The notes under the pieces: generated by a model
Seen by the model: the letters and a program-made list of their open reading frames with translations, nothing else
Databases searched by the model: none
Told to the model about the DNA's origin: nothing
In this document: one piece after another, positions 128 to 9,757 of the stretch
Numbering within the stretch: position 1 is the stretch's first letter
How the letters are laid out: each line of letters opens with the position of its first letter
Source: Deltaproteobacteria bacterium
Lineage (GTDB): Bacteria > UBA10199 > 2-02-FULL-44-16 > JAAZCA01
DNA length: 51,286 bases
NCBI GenBank assembly: GCA_018645265.1
Contig: JABGOS010000070.1
Span: 1 to 51,286, forward strand
Direction of reading: 5' to 3'
Position numbers and translations under genes: made by a program

Positions 128-487
128 ATGAATGATGAAAAACACTGTTTTTCAAAATCGTCTAGGATCATCAAGCCGGAAGACTTCCTAAAGGTTAAGA
201 CCGATGGCGTTTCAGCAAGGACGAGAGTGCTTGTCGTATCTTGTTTGCCTGGCCGCACAAGACGGTTAGGTATAGTCGTTTCACGCAAGGTTGGAAATGC
301 CGTGCAGAGAAACAGGCTTAAACGCATAACGAGAGAGTTCTTTAGGATAAAGAGGAAAACGTTTCCTTCCGGTGACAACGTGGTCATTATGTCGCATGCT
401 GCATCGAGACTCGACAACGCTCAAGTAAGAGCGGAGCTTAGCAAGACACTCTGTAAACTTGAAGGTTTGTTAAACGAAATACGGTGA
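128..487 (+). CDS. rnpA: Ribonuclease P protein component
   Basis: This 119-aa basic protein is the protein subunit of RNase P, which helps the catalytic RNA remove 5' leaders from pre-tRNAs. The family signature is visible in the middle: RKVGNAVQRNRLKRITREFF, the conserved RNR helix that binds RNA, preceded by LGIVVS. Length is normal for RnpA (110-130 aa). The ATG directly follows the rpmH stop and yidD begins 3 bases after its own stop, so the three are very likely one transcript. Confidence 0.96.
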   Translation: MNDEKHCFSKSSRIIKPEDFLKVKTDGVSARTRVLVVSCLPGRTRRLGIVVSRKVGNAVQRNRLKRITREFFRIKRKTFPSGDNVVIMSHAASRLDNAQVRAELSKTLCKLEGLLNEIR

Positions 488-730: not shown

Positions 731-2434
731 ATGAAGACAGAACACCGCACATTATTAGCTGTAGTAATTTCGGTAATATTTTTTATTCTTTGGTATACGG
801 TTATCAATCCTCAGAAGACTCCTGAGGCCACCAGCAAGAACGACACTGTCGCAAAAACAGAAACATCCGATAAGGCTGACGAAACCATAAAAACCGAGAA
901 GGAAGCCCCGGAAGCAAATAGAGAAGTTTTGGCTTCAACGAGCGCTGATCCGCAGTCGGACCTTCCTGTAAAGACCTGGTCGATACAGAACGACCTTATT
1001 AAAGCCAACTTTACAAGCGACGGCGGAAATCCTGTAAACTGGCTGACAAAAAAATATCATACAAAGACCGATCCGCAGAGCCCATTGATCGATCTCGTTA
1101 AGAGCGGCAATGGAGTTGTTCCTGCACTAGCTCTTTCATTTGAAGATGCGGACTTTCAATTCCCGGAGAACCCTAAATACGAGATGGTATCTGCGGACGA
1201 AAGCCACGTGAGCTATAGGTGGCGCTCAAAAGATGTTGAAGTTGTAAAAACAGTCAAGATCAACCCAAAGAGCTATCTCGCTGAAGTGTCGGCGAGCGTT
1301 AAGAACTTGAGCAATAAAACGCTTAAGGGAAAACCAACGCTCAAATGGGGCGGAAAGAATCTTCCAGCAAAGGGTGGTGGCCTGCTTGGTTTTATGAAGC
1401 AACCGCAGATAGATAGCGCCAGCCCGGTCTATTTTATGGATGGAGAGGCTCACCGCGAAAAAAGCGTGGCGAAGATGGGAACGCTGAACGAGAATGTCGG
1501 CTCCGTCTATTGGTCAGGACTTGAGAGTAGATATTTCTTTTCGGCGATAATCCCACGTACACAGGCTATGGGAATTGCCGCTGAGTATGGGGCAAAAGCC
1601 CTCCAGGGTGAAGAGCCGGGAACGGTTGGCGTGTGGGCAGGTGTCTCGATGCCGTCGGTTGTAATACCTATAGGGGATACGGAAATTACGAACTTCTCCG
1701 TTTATGTAGGGCCAAAAGAGATCAGTCAACTGAAGGCGGTTGGTGTAAATCTTGAAAAATCTATCGACTACGGTTGGTTTACAATTATATCGGTTCCAAT
1801 CCTCTACCTGTTGCACTTCTTCTATAATATTATTCACAACTACGGTGTGGCGATTATTCTGATGACGATGTTCGTGAAGCTCCTTCTACATCCAATCAAC
1901 GCGAAGTCGCTGAAATCAATGAAGGCAATGCAGCAGGTGCAGCCACAGCTTAAGGAACTCCAGAAGAAATATAAGGATGACAAACAGCGATTGAACCAGG
2001 AGACGATGGCCCTTTTTAAAGCCCACAAGGTAAATCCGATGGGTGGGTGTCTGCCGATGCTCGCGCAGTTTCCAATATACATCGCTCTATATAAAGTGCT
2101 TTGGAACTCAATCGAGCTTTTTCACGCTCCATTCTTTTGGTTCTACAAAGATCTTTCAGCGCCGGATCCATATTATATTACACCAGTGTTGTTAGGTCTT
2201 TTTATGGTGGCACAGCAGAAGCTTATGCCATCCACTAGCGCAGATCCCGCACAGAAGAAGATGATGATGATTATGCCAGTCATGTTCAGTGTCTTCATGC
2301 TCTTCTTGCCGGTGGGGCTCGTCGTCTACATCCTCGTGAACACTGTAATGAGCGTCACACAGCAATATCTTTACAACAAGGGGATAAGGATGAGGGATCT
2401 CATAAGAGGAAAGTGGCTGCCTTCTAGCGTATAG
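731..2434 (+). CDS. yidC: Membrane protein insertase YidC
   Basis: This 567-aa inner-membrane insertase has a first transmembrane segment at about residues 7-24 (LLAVVISVIFFILWYTV), a long low-complexity Lys/Glu/Thr linker, a large periplasmic beta domain (about 75-340), and the C-terminal five-helix 60-kDa insertase domain from about residue 350. That domain contains NYGVAIILMTMFVKLLLHP, the coiled-coil loop MQQVQPQLKELQKKYK and NPMGGCLPMLAQFPI. The long periplasmic domain is typical of Gram-negative YidC. The ATG at 731 has GGGGAGAG upstream. The gene is followed directly by a strong terminator, so the rpmH-rnpA-yidD-yidC unit ends here without the usual jag and mnmE. Confidence 0.97.
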   Translation: MKTEHRTLLAVVISVIFFILWYTVINPQKTPEATSKNDTVAKTETSDKADETIKTEKEAPEANREVLASTSADPQSDLPVKTWSIQNDLIKANFTSDGGNPVNWLTKKYHTKTDPQSPLIDLVKSGNGVVPALALSFEDADFQFPENPKYEMVSADESHVSYRWRSKDVEVVKTVKINPKSYLAEVSASVKNLSNKTLKGKPTLKWGGKNLPAKGGGLLGFMKQPQIDSASPVYFMDGEAHREKSVAKMGTLNENVGSVYWSGLESRYFFSAIIPRTQAMGIAAEYGAKALQGEEPGTVGVWAGVSMPSVVIPIGDTEITNFSVYVGPKEISQLKAVGVNLEKSIDYGWFTIISVPILYLLHFFYNIIHNYGVAIILMTMFVKLLLHPINAKSLKSMKAMQQVQPQLKELQKKYKDDKQRLNQETMALFKAHKVNPMGGCLPMLAQFPIYIALYKVLWNSIELFHAPFFWFYKDLSAPDPYYITPVLLGLFMVAQQKLMPSTSADPAQKKMMMIMPVMFSVFMLFLPVGLVVYILVNTVMSVTQQYLYNKGIRMRDLIRGKWLPSSV

Positions 2435-2461: not shown

Positions 2462-2506
2462 AACCCCCGGTGATAGAAACATCTAATCATCGGGGGTTGT
2501 TTTTTA
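2462..2506 (+). terminator. Rho-independent terminator after yidC, possibly bidirectional
   Basis: A 13-bp stem pairs AACCCCCGGTGAT (2462-2474) with ATCATCGGGGGTT (2486-2498), with one G-T wobble and an 11-base loop. It is followed by GTTTTTT. The hairpin lies between the convergent ends of yidC and the minus-strand transporter gene ending at 2504, so it may stop transcripts from both sides. Confidence 0.9.
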
Positions 2507-3220
2507 TAATCCTAAAACAATCAATACGCCACAAAGTGCGATAGTAGCTCCCGCCAGTGCATGTGAATAACGCTCAATTCTTTTAATAGGAATAAAACTA
2601 ATACCTAGAGATCCGAAAAAAACAGCGGCCATCATTGTGGCTATTGTTACGACAGCGAATACGGACGTTACGAAGATGAGACCAAAGTAGCTTTTCATTG
2701 CCGCGGGATACATCAAAATGGGAATGAGCGGTTCACATGGGCCGAAGACGAATACTGTAAAGAGAACCCACGGAGTAATGCTCACTTTTTCAGGGGAGTC
2801 ATGTACATGCATATGTTTGCCATTGTGCGTATGTTCGTGTGCATGGTCCGGATCGTCTGAGCCAAAATGTGCGTGTGTGTGCGGTTTATTTCTTATTGCG
2901 CGACGAACACCCCATACGAAATACGCGAGGCCGAACGCTATAAAAAGATATGCCGCGATATCACCGCGAACGCTTTCGATGGAGGTTAACCTGCTTACCG
3001 CCACCCCAAGCGCAACGCCCACAAAACCTAGAACGACCGAGCTTCCAACATGACCCAAGCCGCAAAGAAATGTGATAAAGGCGGTCTTCGGTTTAGACCA
3101 GCCCCTGGCCCGAGACATGACGATGAACGGCAAATAATGGTCAGGTCCCAGTATCGTATGAATAAATCCGATTGAGGCGGCAAGGCCAGCTAAGGCCATT
3201 ATAGTTGTTTCCTGCGGCAT
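2504..3220 (-). CDS. NicO/UreH-like polytopic membrane transporter with histidine-rich loop
   Basis: This 238-aa integral membrane protein has about six hydrophobic segments. An early motif GPDHYLPF and a GHVGSSVVLG motif resemble the nickel/cobalt transporter (NicO, RcnA) and UreH/SafE-like families. The central loop (about residues 113-142) is rich in His and Asp (HTHAHFGSDDPDHAHEHTH, then GKHMHVHD), typical of divalent-metal handling. The later FGPCEPLIPIL motif is also family-like. The ATG at 3220 has GGAGG four bases upstream. The likely role is export or uptake of Ni/Co or another transition metal; the substrate is not decided by sequence. It stands alone between yidC and gatE. Confidence 0.75.
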   Translation of the reverse strand: MPQETTIMALAGLAASIGFIHTILGPDHYLPFIVMSRARGWSKPKTAFITFLCGLGHVGSSVVLGFVGVALGVAVSRLTSIESVRGDIAAYLFIAFGLAYFVWGVRRAIRNKPHTHAHFGSDDPDHAHEHTHNGKHMHVHDSPEKVSITPWVLFTVFVFGPCEPLIPILMYPAAMKSYFGLIFVTSVFAVVTIATMMAAVFFGSLGISFIPIKRIERYSHALAGATIALCGVLIVLGL

Positions 3221-3448: not shown

Positions 3449-5185
3449 TTAGGATGGTGCGGGAATCTTTTCGCAGACGGAGAGAACGATATCTTCAACC
3501 GAACGTTCCGGATATGCTACGAGATTGGTCACCAGACCCTCAATGTGCTTCGAGGGTATTTTTTTCTCATCGCAGGCTGTAATTAACTCTGCCCACCTGT
3601 CGCCTGTGACTTTATCCGATTCTACACCCTGTCTTTTGAGACTTCTTACGGTTTGGCCAAGAATTCGTCCTACAAGTTTCATGTCCCTGCCCTCTTTGTG
3701 AAGCTTGTCGATCAGGGCGATATAATCTGAGATGGCCAGGCTCTTAAGAGTATCTTTGGGAACGCCATGTTCTTCGAGCCTTTTTTCAACCTCATATGTT
3801 GGTTCGGGTAATGCGTCTTTGATTTTCAAAACGCGATCGTTTGCGATCCTAACTGGGGGATGGTCGGTATCGGGATACATGCGATCCGCTCCAGGGAGAA
3901 TTCTTTCAAAATCTGAGAGGCCATTTCTGAGTGATTGCCGCGTTTCGCAAGGCACCCCGTCGAACGCTTCGAAAATACGATTACGAATTTCATTTATAGC
4001 CGTAACGGTATCTGCATCAGGTCCCCACACGACTATGCCGACATCCGAATCATCACAGTTTAATTTTAAAGAGAGCCTGAGGGTTTTTAAGTCGATGTGG
4101 TTGCGCGGATATTCGGGGTAGCTGTCCGTATGATAGATGTTCGGGATTTCATCGAGACAGGCTATCACGCGAACACGACCAGCGAGTTCAGATGCAAATG
4201 TCTTACCGGGCTGTGTTGGATGTCTTAGTATTCCAGAGAGTTTTTCAAACTTAATGCCGCGTATGCGATGTCCGTTTCTGATTGCGTCTCTAAGGGGGGG
4301 AGATGCTGAGTTCTTAAGTTCATCTGTCAGGTCGCAATCGAAGAATTTCAGATTATCCTTCGTGAGCTTTCTCTTTTTTAGCTCTTTTCGAATGTCGAGA
4401 AGGGCTTTCTGGCGAAGGGCTTCATTTCTCGTGAGTGCGGGGATGAGCTGATACCTTGGAACACCCTTAATTTCCACGCGTGATCCACCTTCTATCGATA
4501 CATTTACATCCTGCCGTACCGCACCAAGCCCCCTTCTAACATGTCCGGTTGCGCGGAGTAATCTCCCGATATGGCGCACGCCCTCCCCGGCTTCTTCTGG
4601 CGTTTTGAAACAAGCATCTGTAACCACCTCTATGAGTGGCATACCTAGGCGGTCAGTTCTAAATTTTATAAGATGTTTATCGTCGGAGCGCTCACGACAA
4701 CTATCCTCCTCTATGGAGAGTTGTGTCACTTCGATTTTTTTATTTCCAAAGGGAATACTGCCGTTAATTCCTACGATACCGGTTCTTTGAAATCCGGTTG
4801 GTATGGAACCGTCGAGATACTGTTTTCTAGCTATATGCATTTCGTCAACGATCGAACATCCCGTTAAGAGCGCAATTTCGATCGCGACGTCTAATGCTTG
4901 TTGGTTAATTGGAAATGGTGGGGTGTCGTCCATCTCATATGTGCAAACCGTTTTCTTGTTTAGAAGGTAGAGTATATCCTTCTTCGTTTTAAACTCCATC
5001 AGTGCGCAGCCATCGTAAACGCCCATCTCGGAGAGAGTCGGTCGCATATGACGCAAAACTTCCGCATGATGATCCGTTGAATAGAGTCCGGCGGGACATC
5101 TACAGAAGAGCTTCTTCTCTGTAAGGAGTTGTTGGTGGATCTCCATTCCGCATTTGAAGCCCAGCTTTTTCATTTCATCGGTCAT
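3449..5185 (-). CDS. gatE: Archaeal-type Glu-tRNA(Gln) amidotransferase subunit E, lacking the C-terminal tail
   Basis: GatE is the kinase/transamidase subunit of the archaeal GatDE complex, which converts Glu-tRNA(Gln) to Gln-tRNA(Gln). The GatB-like cradle is clear: LGFKCGMEIHQQL, LFCRCP (zinc cysteines), IARKQYLDGSIPTGFQRTG, LSIEEDSCRE and DRLGMPLIEVVTD. What makes it GatE rather than GatB is the AspRS-like insert at about residues 260-390, followed by PGADRMYPDTDHPPVRI. The helical domain follows, but the protein stops soon after ERSVEDIVLS, so the YqeY-like tail of archaeal GatE is missing: 578 aa here against about 620. ATG at 5185 is chosen from the family alignment; it has no good Shine-Dalgarno, and the open frame extends to a TTG at 5266. 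Divergent to gatD. Confidence 0.93.
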   Translation of the reverse strand: MTDEMKKLGFKCGMEIHQQLLTEKKLFCRCPAGLYSTDHHAEVLRHMRPTLSEMGVYDGCALMEFKTKKDILYLLNKKTVCTYEMDDTPPFPINQQALDVAIEIALLTGCSIVDEMHIARKQYLDGSIPTGFQRTGIVGINGSIPFGNKKIEVTQLSIEEDSCRERSDDKHLIKFRTDRLGMPLIEVVTDACFKTPEEAGEGVRHIGRLLRATGHVRRGLGAVRQDVNVSIEGGSRVEIKGVPRYQLIPALTRNEALRQKALLDIRKELKKRKLTKDNLKFFDCDLTDELKNSASPPLRDAIRNGHRIRGIKFEKLSGILRHPTQPGKTFASELAGRVRVIACLDEIPNIYHTDSYPEYPRNHIDLKTLRLSLKLNCDDSDVGIVVWGPDADTVTAINEIRNRIFEAFDGVPCETRQSLRNGLSDFERILPGADRMYPDTDHPPVRIANDRVLKIKDALPEPTYEVEKRLEEHGVPKDTLKSLAISDYIALIDKLHKEGRDMKLVGRILGQTVRSLKRQGVESDKVTGDRWAELITACDEKKIPSKHIEGLVTNLVAYPERSVEDIVLSVCEKIPAPS

Positions 5186-5368
5186 GAGGGGGCTTAGATA
5201 GGCCAAAAGCGCTTGACAACGCAAGGAAAAACAATTGGTTATGCTGAACCAAAAAGAGGGCAACAATTTTTAAAATTCTACGAAAAAGATATTGGTATGG
5301 CGATTATTTTGTAGATATAAAAAATTTAGAAGCGAACATAGGGTGTATTGAATTTTTTGGAGGTAGAA

Positions 5369-5593
5369 ATGGCAAGCGAGACTGTAACATTCAAGTTCGG
5401 TGGTTCCTGCAGGTCTGACAGGGAGGTCAGGGGGGCTGTGATTACTAACACAGACGCATACTGCAGGGCTAACAAGAAGGGCCATGAAGCGTCGGTGCTT
5501 GAGATAAGGCCTGGCGAACGTCATGGATCCAAGGATGTCTATAAGTGCACTGACGGTTGGTTTGAAGTGTGGGTCAAGTTTCGCTGTAAATAA
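5369..5593 (+). CDS. Small conserved-looking protein of unknown function between gatE and gatD
   Basis: The 74-aa product begins MASETVTFKFGG and ends GWFEVWVKFRCK. The start ATG at 5369 has an excellent GGAGG Shine-Dalgarno 4-8 bases upstream, which argues for a real gene. Four cysteines (residues about 14, 32, 58 and 73) and alternating hydrophobic/polar residues suggest a small beta-rich fold, possibly metal-binding. I recognise no family. It lies 33 bases before gatD on the same strand and diverges from gatE, so it is probably co-transcribed with gatD. A role linked to GatDE is only positional inference. Confidence 0.7.
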   Translation: MASETVTFKFGGSCRSDREVRGAVITNTDAYCRANKKGHEASVLEIRPGERHGSKDVYKCTDGWFEVWVKFRCK

Positions 5594-5626
5594 ACCAATT
5601 GAGATAAGCCTTCTTGGCTGAGCCGT

Positions 5627-7054
5627 ATGGAGTTGACTTCCCATCCCCCGCATGTCAAACAGCCGGCCATGTCGGAAGATATACATCAGGGTTATAGAGA
5701 TCCAGGGCTTGCCGTACTCAAGAAGTACGATATCGCAGTTTGGGATCGAGTGGAGATCGAAACCACAAAAGGACTCTTCACAGGACTTATCCTTCCCCGC
5801 TCCAAGACGGAAGACGCCGAACATATCGTTATAAAAATGCCAAGCGGTTACAATACCGGCGTTCATGTGGAATCAATAACAAAGATTAAACGAATCGGAA
5901 GGCGTGAGGGACACTACTCCATTCCTGAGAAGGAATTTCCGTACGATAAGCGAAAGAAAAACGTAACCCTTCTCGGCACGGGTGGTACTATAGCATCACG
6001 ACTCGACTATACTACGGGCGCTGTAGTTCCTGCATTTTCACCGGGCGAGCTCTATGGGGCGGTGCCGGAGTTGGCTGATATCTGCAACCTTACCACAACA
6101 AAACTCTTCGGTGTGTTTTCGGAGAACATGGGTCCAGAGCAGTATGTAGTTCTTGCGAAAGAGATTGAAAGGCTTATTCGCGAGGAGGATATTGACGGGA
6201 TAGTGATAGGTCATGGAACCGATACAATGCACCATACGGGGTCGGTGCTTTCATATATGATACAGAACACCCCTATTCCGATTGTGCTTGTCGGTTCGCA
6301 GCGCTCAAGCGACCGCCCGAGTTCAGATGCAGCAAGAAACTTGATCAATGCGGTCTACACAGCGGCACATTCCGATATAGCTGAGATTATGGTGTGTATG
6401 TTTGGCCCAACCTCCGATGATTATGGATTGTTACACGTTGGGACGAGAGTTAGAAAAATGCATTCGAGCTATCGCTCAACATTTAGAACCCTTTCAGACG
6501 TGCCGATCGCGATGGTCTGGCCGGACAGATATGTTCCGCTTCGTGAATATAAGAAGAGAAGGAAGGATAAAGATGTTATCGTAAACCCTGCGTATGACGA
6601 TAGGGTTACGATACTTTACTACTATCCAGGAATGAAGCCGGATGTAATCGATTCCCTCATCGATAATGGCTATAGGGGTATTGTCATAGCTGGCACTGGC
6701 CTGGGTCATGTAAACTCCGCGTTGAATAAATCGCTCAAGCGGGCGGTCGATAAGGGTATTACAGTAGTGATGACGGTGCAGACGCTTTGGGGCTATGTCC
6801 ATATGAACGTATATGATGTCGGGCGATACCTGTTAGAGCTTGGAGTTATTCCTTGTGAAAACATGTTGCCGGAAGCGGCATACATGAAGCTCTGTTGGGT
6901 TTTGGGACAAACCCAGGATCAGAAAGAAGCAAAAGAGATGATGCTTAAAACAATTGCACACGAGATTACCGAGCGGGAACCTCACAACGGCTACCTCGTA
7001 TATCAGGGAGGTATTCCAGAAGTCGAAAAATTTCTCTCCACCTATAAGAAGTAA
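5627..7054 (+). CDS. gatD: Archaeal-type Glu-tRNA(Gln) amidotransferase subunit D
   Basis: GatD is the asparaginase-like subunit that releases ammonia from Gln or Asn for GatE. The N-terminal GatD-specific barrel (about residues 35-92: WDRVEIETTKGLFTGLILPR, HIVIKMPSGYNTGVHV) separates it from plain L-asparaginases. The asparaginase core follows with both threonine-centred motifs: LLGTGGTIASR (Thr121) and GHGTDTMHHT (Thr198, Asp199). SQRSSDRPSSDAARN and GITVVMTVQT follow, then the C-terminal AYMKLCWVLG. Length (475 aa) is slightly above archaeal GatD (about 435), because of the N-terminus. The ATG at 5627 lacks a clear ribosome site; ATG at 5669 is an alternative. Confidence 0.94.
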   Translation: MELTSHPPHVKQPAMSEDIHQGYRDPGLAVLKKYDIAVWDRVEIETTKGLFTGLILPRSKTEDAEHIVIKMPSGYNTGVHVESITKIKRIGRREGHYSIPEKEFPYDKRKKNVTLLGTGGTIASRLDYTTGAVVPAFSPGELYGAVPELADICNLTTTKLFGVFSENMGPEQYVVLAKEIERLIREEDIDGIVIGHGTDTMHHTGSVLSYMIQNTPIPIVLVGSQRSSDRPSSDAARNLINAVYTAAHSDIAEIMVCMFGPTSDDYGLLHVGTRVRKMHSSYRSTFRTLSDVPIAMVWPDRYVPLREYKKRRKDKDVIVNPAYDDRVTILYYYPGMKPDVIDSLIDNGYRGIVIAGTGLGHVNSALNKSLKRAVDKGITVVMTVQTLWGYVHMNVYDVGRYLLELGVIPCENMLPEAAYMKLCWVLGQTQDQKEAKEMMLKTIAHEITEREPHNGYLVYQGGIPEVEKFLSTYKK

Positions 7055-7217: not shown

Positions 7218-7826
7218 GTGAATGAAAAAATTAAAAAGTATTATGAGTTGTTTGAGAAGTGGAATGCGAAAATGAATCTCATGTCCATTTCGAGTGAAGC
7301 GGAGTTTGTTGATAAACACGTTAAGGATGTTGAAAAGCTTATTCCGTATTTGAAAGAGGTAAAGACGCTAGTAGATCTCGGTTCCGGTGCAGGGGTTCCT
7401 GGTATTTTGATTAAGATCATGAAGCCTAAGGTAGATGTTACCCTGGTAGAGGCGACTAGAAAGAAGGTGTCCTTTTGTGAGGAGGTTGTTAGGTCGTTGA
7501 AATTAAAGGAAATATTGCCAATATGGGGGCGGGCTGAAGATGAGGGGTTGATGAGGGGGCTTGGTGCGTTCGGCGCAGTTGTCTCCAGGGCAACCTGGGA
7601 CTTGAAGAAATATCTAATGATTGCAGATAGATACGCTGATGGAGGTGGTCTTTGCATTGCCATGAAGGGAAGTCGGTGGTCTGAGGAGCTTCGGGAGGCC
7701 GGTGAGTTCATTGAAAAGTCAGATCTCGACCTCATTGAAACATCTGAGTATAAACTGGAGGGGGGTGAGAAAAGGGCTATCTTAATCTTTAAAAAAGCCC
7801 TCCTGCAGCCACCTGAAAAAGAATAA
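7218..7826 (+). CDS. rsmG: 16S rRNA m7G527 methyltransferase RsmG (GidB)
   Basis: This 202-aa SAM-dependent methyltransferase modifies G527 of 16S rRNA. Visible features are the N-terminal YYELFEKWNAKMNLMSI, the glycine-rich SAM loop VDLGSGAGVPGI (about residues 53-64), VTLVEATRKKVSFCEEV and SRATWDLKKYL. This order is typical of RsmG. The start is a GTG at 7218 with no strong ribosome site. The rsmG-parA-parB order is common near bacterial origins. The 163 bases between gatD and this gene hold nothing I can identify. Confidence 0.94.
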   Translation: MNEKIKKYYELFEKWNAKMNLMSISSEAEFVDKHVKDVEKLIPYLKEVKTLVDLGSGAGVPGILIKIMKPKVDVTLVEATRKKVSFCEEVVRSLKLKEILPIWGRAEDEGLMRGLGAFGAVVSRATWDLKKYLMIADRYADGGGLCIAMKGSRWSEELREAGEFIEKSDLDLIETSEYKLEGGEKRAILIFKKALLQPPEKE

Positions 7827-7895: not shown

Positions 7896-8030
7896 TTCTC
7901 TATTTCGCCCACAAACGTTGTATTTTTGATTTTACCCGCAAGATTACCCACCGCTTTTTTAATCAAGCCCTTATCTCCTTGCACTTTTTGAAGATTGGAA
8001 ATAAAGATCAGTGCAACAGGGGAGTCAAAT

Positions 8031-8876
8031 ATGGCTGAGATCATTGCCATCTGTAATCAAAAAGGTGGAGTTGGTAAGACTACGACATCTATAAATCTAT
8101 CTGCCGCACTCGCTGCAGCGGAGAAAAGAACACTCCTCATAGACCTTGATTCTCAGGGGAATGCCACCACGGGGCTTGGTTTTGATAAGCACAAGGTCGA
8201 ATATAGCATATATAACGCCCTGATCGATGGGGTGGATATAACCTCAATACTTCTCTCCACAGATCTCAAATATCTGAAGGTGGTCCCTTCAAACACATCT
8301 TTGGTTGGTGCTGAGGTGGAGCTCGTCGGTGTTGTTTCACGTGAAACGCGATTGAAGCATCTTCTTCAGGCCGTTGACGATGAATTTGATTATATCATCA
8401 TCGATACACCGCCTTCGCTGGGGCTTTTAACTTTAAATGCCCTTTCAGCTGCAAACTCGGTGATTGTTCCAGTTCAATGTGAATACTATGCCCTCGAGGG
8501 TATTGCAGACCTTCAGAGAACAATAAGCCTGGTTCAGGATAGAATCAATCCGGAGCTTAAGATCTTTGGTATAGTCCTGACGATGTTTGATTCTAGGAAT
8601 AATCTTTCACACCAAGTCTTAACAGAGGTGAAGACTCATTTTAAAGAGGTTGTCTTTCATTCTGTAATTCCGAGGAATGTTCGTTTGAGCGAGGCACCAA
8701 GTTATGGCAAGCCTATATTGTTATACGATGTTAATTCTAAGGGGGCGGTAAGTTATTTTGAGTTGGCGAAAGAGGTTCTGATGTCAGAGGGTGGGTCGCT
8801 TAAGGATGATGTACCGGCCGATACTACACAGAATGTTCAGGAAGAAGTTATGCAGGTATTCAATAATAGTCAATAA
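8031..8876 (+). CDS. parA: Chromosome partitioning ATPase ParA (Soj)
   Basis: This 281-aa deviant-Walker P-loop ATPase moves ParB-parS complexes over the nucleoid. The Walker A motif is KGGVGKTTTS at residues 11-20, with the signature first lysine; FDYIIIDTPPSLGLLT is Walker B, and VPVQCEYYALEG follows. ATG at 8031 is chosen because GGGGAG lies 8-13 bases upstream and MAEIIAICNQKGGVGKT is the normal N-terminus; the frame is open further upstream. parB follows after 23 bases. A parS site lies inside the coding sequence. Confidence 0.96.
   Translation: MAEIIAICNQKGGVGKTTTSINLSAALAAAEKRTLLIDLDSQGNATTGLGFDKHKVEYSIYNALIDGVDITSILLSTDLKYLKVVPSNTSLVGAEVELVGVVSRETRLKHLLQAVDDEFDYIIIDTPPSLGLLTLNALSAANSVIVPVQCEYYALEGIADLQRTISLVQDRINPELKIFGIVLTMFDSRNNLSHQVLTEVKTHFKEVVFHSVIPRNVRLSEAPSYGKPILLYDVNSKGAVSYFELAKEVLMSEGGSLKDDVPADTTQNVQEEVMQVFNNSQ
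8333..8348. promoter_or_regulatory. parS: parS centromere site 2, inside parA
   Basis: TGTTTCACGTGAAACG matches 15 of 16 bases of the parS consensus. It lies within the parA coding sequence, encoding the residues GVVSRETR, about 450 bp from the intergenic site. Intragenic parS sites in par operons are known in other bacteria. Confidence 0.92.
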
Positions 8877-8899
8877 TTACAACAACATGGAGGGAGTAG

Positions 8900-9757
8900 A
8901 TGCAATTAAAGAGAGGGCTTGGAAGGGGTTTGGAATCACTTATTCCGCCTCCCGTTGAAAAGAGCAGCGAGATGGATAGGAAGATGAGGACATTACCTAT
9001 AGAGCAAATTACTCCCAACAGATTGCAGCCGAGGACTGTATTTGATGAAGAGAAGATCAGGGAGCTTGCGAATTCGATAAAGGAGCAGGGAATCATTCAG
9101 CCTCTCGCGGTTTCACCGATAAGGGAGGGTAAGTATGAGCTGATTGCTGGTGAGAGAAGATTGCGCGCCTCGAAGCTCGCCGGTCTGACTGAGGTCCCGG
9201 TATTCATAAAAAGCGTGGATGATGAACAGCTCTTGGCTCTTTCGCTCCTCGAAAATATTCAGAGGGAAGATTTAAATCCCATAGAGGAATCAAGGGCATA
9301 TCAGGAGTTGGTCGAACAGTTTGATTACACGCAGGAGGAGGTCGCTCAGAAACTTGGGAAATCCAGGTCGGCAGTTGCAAACAGTTTGAGACTTTTAAAA
9401 CTCCCCCACCTTATTCAGGAGGATGTTGCAAACGAACGGTATTCGTCCGGTCACGCAAGGGCCCTCCTATCGCTTGGCAGTCTTCATGATCAGTTGAAAC
9501 TTCGCGAGAAGATGATGCATGAGTTGCCTACGGTGCGCGATATCGAGCGCATGGTTCATGAGTTTTCAAACGGTAAAAAGAAAAAGGCTCAGAAAAAAAC
9601 TATTCTTTCGGCGCACATGAACGATCTTATAGAAAAGATGAAACAAGCCTTAGGAACGAAGGTAAAGGTTGAGCAAAAGGGAAATAGCGGAAAGGTAATA
9701 ATTGAATATTATAACGCGCAGGATTTGGACCGCATTTTTAGATCAATAGTAAAATAG
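8900..9757 (+). CDS. parB: Chromosome partitioning protein ParB (Spo0J), CTP-dependent clamp
   Basis: This 285-aa DNA-binding protein has the N-terminal KRGLGRGLESLIPP (ParA-stimulating segment), then the ParB/Srx nucleotide-binding core. The core contains QPLAVSPIREGKYELIAGERRLRASKLAG (GERR motif binding CTP) and ALSLLENIQREDLNPIEESRAY. The helix-turn-helix LGKSRSAVANSLRLL follows, then a Lys-rich linker and a C-terminal dimerisation segment. ATG at 8900 is preceded by GGAGGGAG. It is in an operon with parA, and both parS sites are within 1.1 kb. Confidence 0.96.
   Translation: MQLKRGLGRGLESLIPPPVEKSSEMDRKMRTLPIEQITPNRLQPRTVFDEEKIRELANSIKEQGIIQPLAVSPIREGKYELIAGERRLRASKLAGLTEVPVFIKSVDDEQLLALSLLENIQREDLNPIEESRAYQELVEQFDYTQEEVAQKLGKSRSAVANSLRLLKLPHLIQEDVANERYSSGHARALLSLGSLHDQLKLREKMMHELPTVRDIERMVHEFSNGKKKKAQKKTILSAHMNDLIEKMKQALGTKVKVEQKGNSGKVIIEYYNAQDLDRIFRSIVK

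Follow-up and report, generated by a model that had tools for sequence, protein, structure and literature searches.

A GatDE amidotransferase pair in a deltaproteobacterial chromosome points to a large bacterial clade of this presumed archaeal enzyme

The DNA analysed in the current work, a stretch of 51,286 nucleotides from a Deltaproteobacteria genome (contig JABGOS010000070.1, here named "the window"), contains gatE and gatD genes which are confirmed to encode a real two-subunit GatDE, the E subunit being GatE and not GatB as judged by HMM scores and fold. Reviews describe GatDE as confined to archaea (PMC9499178, 2022; PMC8007984, 2021). GatDE is not an archaea-only enzyme, and a large bacterial clade of it has been overlooked in the literature. 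A description of bacterial GatDE was not found in the literature searched, which lay mostly outside subscription journals, and an earlier report is possible; automated annotation with the HMMs used here would already label such proteins as GatE. The features of the locus are collected in Table 1.

Table 1. Genes and open reading frames at the gatE/gatD locus (positions in the window)
Feature	Position	Strand	Length and start	Remarks
rnpA	128-487	+		Bacterial flank
yidC	731-2434	+		Bacterial flank; adjoins gatE in related genomes
Membrane protein gene	2504-3220	-		Loop rich in His; weak match to DsbD_2
gatE (Glu-tRNA(Gln) amidotransferase subunit E)	3449-5185	-	578 aa; best start ATG 5185	Contains the GatB/E catalytic domain, the AspRS-like insert region and the helical domain; no C-terminal YqeY tail
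Small ORF	5369-5593	+	74 aa	Between the divergent gatE and gatD
gatD (subunit D)	5669-7054	+	461 aa; start ATG 5669; open frame from 5627	GatD_N domain and type I asparaginase-like domain; Thr/Thr-Asp/Lys catalytic residues intact
rsmG	7218-7826	+		Bacterial flank
parA and parB	7995-9757	+		Bacterial flank

Against the NCBIfam equivalog HMMs, GatE scored 517.6 bits with NF003107/PRK04028 (cut-off 456) and 432.4 bits with TIGR00134 (cut-off 319.55), the GatE models being the best scoring among those for GatB and GatE, whereas the best GatB models gave 124-139 bits, far under cut-offs of about 315-338 (lowest 314.8), and by this measure of GatCAB membership the protein is not a GatB. GatD scored 503.5 bits with NF003217 (cut-off 310) and 497.2 bits with TIGR02153 (cut-off 324), and its GatD_N domain was recognised by PF18195 (51.7 bits, cut-off 25.7). 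The archaeal GatDE structures of Pyrococcus abyssi (1ZQ1) and Methanothermobacter thermautotrophicus (2D6F) are the best sequence relatives of both subunits in the PDB, and the AlphaFold model of GatE (mean pLDDT 90.3) matched 1ZQ1 first (E 3.6e-48), followed by 2D6F and then by GatB structures. In an alignment of 16 GatD sequences, archaeal rows included, residues T104/T107, T184, D185 and K263 are invariant, and the catalytic cradle of GatE (E15, H17, E159, E160 and E186) is invariant or nearly so in an alignment that also includes archaeal sequences. With equivalog cut-offs passed, catalytic residues intact and a GatE-like fold, the claim of the first-pass annotation that an archaeal-type GatDE resides in a bacterial chromosome is borne out. 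The genes it called are real, with starts that were slightly long and are now placed at the ATG codons of Table 1, and of the architecture it described, the AspRS-like insert, the N-terminal domain of GatD and the catalytic threonines were found. GatE lacks the C-terminal tail that other GatE proteins have.

The window pair resembles archaeal GatDE in its equivalog scores, in having both subunits with the same fold and AspRS-like insert region, and in the catalytic residues at each of the two active sites, and differs from it in its bacterial host, in its placement in a deep separate clade, in its coexistence with GlnRS and, within the order to which the window genome belongs, in the tail-less GatE; in addition, bacterial-type GatD ends in a conserved ERExNGYL..QGGxPEVExF segment that the archaeal rows of the GatD alignment lack. 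With bacterial GatCAB it has in common the catalytic domain (GatB_N) shared by GatB and GatE and the amidation chemistry, yet there is no GatA-type amidase and the glutaminase is the asparaginase-like GatD. The core fold of GatD and its Thr and Asp-Lys residues are those of type I L-asparaginase, from which it is distinguished by an extra N-terminal domain and by its gatE partner. Staphylococcal MurT-GatD, which we take to be an unrelated amidotransferase of a different family that acts on lipid II, presumably shares only the gene name.

When GTDB genomes were scanned with ten aligned GatE proteins as query, at least 583 relatives were retrieved, and nearly all of the best 80 of these are labelled as bacteria, from Ignavibacteriota, Acidobacteriota, Planctomycetota, Myxococcota, KSB1, Zixibacteria, Aminicenantes, Kapabacteria, Calditrichota and other phyla. 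In most bacterial loci gatE and gatD lie side by side, mostly in an operon-like arrangement, and apart from this pair no conserved neighbour genes were found in GatDE loci. A survey of 46 genomes of the class found GatD over cut-off in seven, these being every one of the four genomes in the window family, the single genome of family f2 and both of family f21; within the same survey GatD over cut-off was absent from family f3, which belongs to the same order as the window. In an unrooted GatE tree the bacterial sequences lie on one side of a fully supported branch and 19 archaeal sequences on the other, with three Thermoplasmatota sequences among the bacterial ones, near their base; the archaeal sampling is limited and the tree shows this split without settling the direction of transfer. 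As far as the sequences allow a judgement, bacterial GatE makes up a single deep clade, distinct from its archaeal counterparts. One bacterial locus (L004, genome G051) has a GatE that groups with archaea on a long branch and may represent a separate transfer. The GatD tree gave the same archaeal/bacterial split, with long archaeal branches. Both window proteins were placed with bacterial and not archaeal sequences. The old transfer proposed at first pass is too narrow a view, the window pair being no isolated transfer and instead one branch of a large bacterial clade. An argument on the amidotransferase of the last common ancestor leans on an archaea-only GatDE, a distribution which the bacterial clade changes. 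As a separate observation, genome G062 (locus L036) carries two gatE-like fragments on different contigs, one of them 70% identical to window GatE, which reflects a mixed bin or a recent transfer.

The window genome was also expected at first pass to make Gln-tRNA in the archaeal way if GlnRS and GatCAB were both absent. A GlnRS scoring 726.5 bits with TIGR00440 (cut-off 425.8) is encoded on contig C35, directly beside a bacterial GluRS gene, and an AsnRS scoring 470 bits is also present; no GatB over cut-off was detected in this 95.6% complete genome, in which the sole GatB_N match is the GatE described here, and gatB is likely, but not proven, to be absent. The expectation therefore fails for the window organism, in which GatDE constitutes an extra or second route because GlnRS is present and GatB absent; since AsnRS is present, GatCAB is not needed for Asn-tRNA either. 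Classical archaeal users of GatDE lack GlnRS, whereas the window host has it, a trait of the host and not of the enzyme family. The three other members of the family (G001, G002 and G003) show the reverse of the window genome (G000), GatB being present and GlnRS absent, and in all four genomes of the family GatDE accordingly stands beside another Gln-tRNA route.

Scoring for GlnRS and GatB was extended to 56 GatE-bearing genomes, 55 of them bacterial and one from Thermoplasmatota. One or both were over cut-off in 47 (GlnRS and GatB in 13, GlnRS only in 25, GatB only in nine), and neither in the remaining nine, five of which hold fragments suggestive of GlnRS or GatB. No sign of either was found in G004 (83% complete), G043 (97% complete), G066 and G092, the last three of which possess AsnRS, and these four organisms may, judging from gene content, rely on GatDE for Gln-tRNA. 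The combination anticipated for the window genome thus seemingly occurs in a few others, the best case being G043, and bacteria devoid of both GlnRS and GatB would form a class of Gln-tRNA synthesis that published schemes for bacteria do not include. The tRNA(Gln) genes of G043 and G092 have U1-A72, whereas recognition of A1-U72 has been reported for archaeal GatDE (PMC9499178); bacterial GatDE, if active there, must therefore accept the bacterial pair. Across its many phyla the bacterial clade occurs mostly beside GlnRS or GatCAB, which raises the question of what its job is there.

Two features of the window-order proteins bear on that job, namely the loss of a domain and the conservation of the remainder. 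GatE of this order ends approximately 67 residues early, the YqeY-like tail being absent in all five genomes (PF02637 matched only at positions 4-80 of 148, or was unmatched), and no frameshifted remnant of the tail was found downstream of gatE in any frame. Full-length GatE of other lineages, archaeal and bacterial, carries this tail with its LMGxxMxxxRG motif; the tail, a tRNA anchor, is part of the working parts of the enzyme and not of its HMM definition. Both frames are nonetheless open, with identities to relatives of about 70% for GatE and 82-84% for GatD. Values of dN are 0.12-0.15 (gatD) and about 0.25 (gatE) as compared to 0.31-0.37 for yidC, and both are also below that of rsmG; as dN is lower than in these neighbouring genes, purifying selection probably acts on both, a reading made from dN with dS saturated.

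In the explanation which is preferred here, by a slender balance of probability, GatDE would be a tRNA-dependent amidotransferase of a deep bacterial branch that acts in the window organism as a second route or in the repair of Glu-tRNA(Gln). GatD would split glutamine (or asparagine) at its Thr/Thr-Asp/Lys site and release ammonia to GatE, which, using ATP, would activate the glutamate side chain on tRNA(Gln) and then amidate it. The main supply of Gln-tRNA would come from GlnRS, with GatDE serving as a backup or correcting the Glu-tRNA(Gln) that is formed when GluRS mischarges tRNA(Gln). The equivalog scores, the GatE fold, the invariant residues, the adjacency of gatE and gatD, the low dN and the presence of GlnRS and AsnRS without GatB are consistent with this explanation. 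Against it, GlnRS should make the amidation reaction unnecessary, and a genome with GlnRS and without GatB is expected to possess a discriminating GluRS (PMC3927822), which would leave little substrate for GatDE. Furthermore, the GatE tail is missing throughout the five genomes of the order, and removal of the YqeY domain left the GatB of yeast mitochondria with no measurable activity (PMC4027206).

That loss, set beside the retention of the tail in full-length archaeal and bacterial GatE elsewhere, is one reason to consider, as a tentative and rather unlikely alternative, that the tail-less GatDE of the window order has been repurposed, having kept its ammonia-dependent amidation chemistry while acquiring a new substrate or a new choice of tRNA or tRNA feature, with GlnRS or GatCAB supplying Gln-tRNA; window-order GatDE would then no longer be an ordinary Gln-tRNA enzyme. 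The strong conservation of the pair although a complete alternative route exists, and the divergent, non-operonic arrangement of gatE and gatD (separated by 483 bp in the window), would agree with such a change, but the search for an added domain, a partner gene or a conserved neighbour yielded none, the catalytic core is unchanged, and the free-standing YqeY proteins detected in three relatives (G001, G003 and G004) might replace the lost GatE domain. An improbable reading is that GatDE is a relic of an indirect pathway which the genome, having GlnRS, is in the course of losing. The occurrence of GlnRS in the window genome and not in its family members, together with the lost tail, would fit decay, yet the tail is equally missing from GlnRS-free relatives, and the open frames, the identity to relatives and dN values below those of yidC and rsmG are at odds with it.

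The genomic setting agrees with a bacterial gene pair, as the first-pass annotation had held. The rnpA, yidC, rsmG and parAB genes surround gatE and gatD, and the arrangement is kept in related genomes: gatE lies beside rnpA-yidC in the window genome, in its three family members and in G004 (a MAG of the same order labelled Bdellovibrio sp. (DYJF01), on the same contig as locus L034), gatD is near gatE in G000, G001 and G003, and rsmG and parAB follow beyond gatD in G000 and G003. That archaeal DNA was joined to a bacterial contig by faulty assembly or binning, a possibility named at first pass and to which the MAG-like assembly of 161 contigs lends itself, is refuted by synteny, the locus and its flanks being shared with related assemblies; the base composition of the window is even throughout, the contamination estimate is 0.34%, and GatE and GatD group with bacterial and not archaeal sequences.

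Three unrelated loci have a tRNA gene within about 250 bp of gatE, namely tRNA-Gln(CUG) in a bacterial locus (L046:4795-4866, minus strand) and in an archaeal locus (L039:3692-3765, plus strand), and tRNA-Glu(CUC) at L051:4726-4802 (plus strand), an adjacency that fits a role of GatDE on tRNA(Gln). In the 483-bp gap of the window no tRNA was found by Rfam or ARAGORN. A low-threshold ARAGORN run gave noise only. In many genomes with GatDE the ordinary tRNA-Gln(UUG) is accompanied by a tRNA-Gln(CUG) whose D-arm is Glu-like, and this second tRNA was considered as a private substrate of GatDE; roughly 70% of 42 GatE-positive genomes carry it versus roughly 60% of 38 GatE-negative ones, and the link was dropped because these controls possess it nearly as often. 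More generally, bacterial tRNA-Gln occurs in two body types, the ordinary UUG type and a CUG (sometimes UUG) type with a Glu-like D-arm and a 4-nt variable loop, both having U1-A72 and both being widespread with or without GatDE (loci L215, L217, L219, L221, L228, L230, L232, L234, L236, L240 and others). A 55-nt odd tRNA on contig C152 of the window genome proved to be a truncated copy of tRNA-Asp.

A side observation concerns the archaeal Thermoplasmata MAG of locus L039; of 30 genomes treated as its relatives, 12 have GlnRS over cut-off (loci L285-L296; genomes G109, G112, G113, G116, G117, G120, G122, G123, G126, G129, G119 and G065), nearly all of these with an archaeal-type GluRS and most without GatE. 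Reviews hold that no archaeon has GlnRS.

Within the window, the small ORF between gatE and gatD is preceded by a good ribosome-binding sequence; it had no Pfam match, and no counterpart in the loci of relatives at E 1e-5. The membrane protein encoded between yidC and gatE, with its His-rich loop HTHAHFG..HAHEHTHNGKHMHVH, is possibly a metal transporter, and a cbiM-like gene occupies the corresponding position in G003 and G004.
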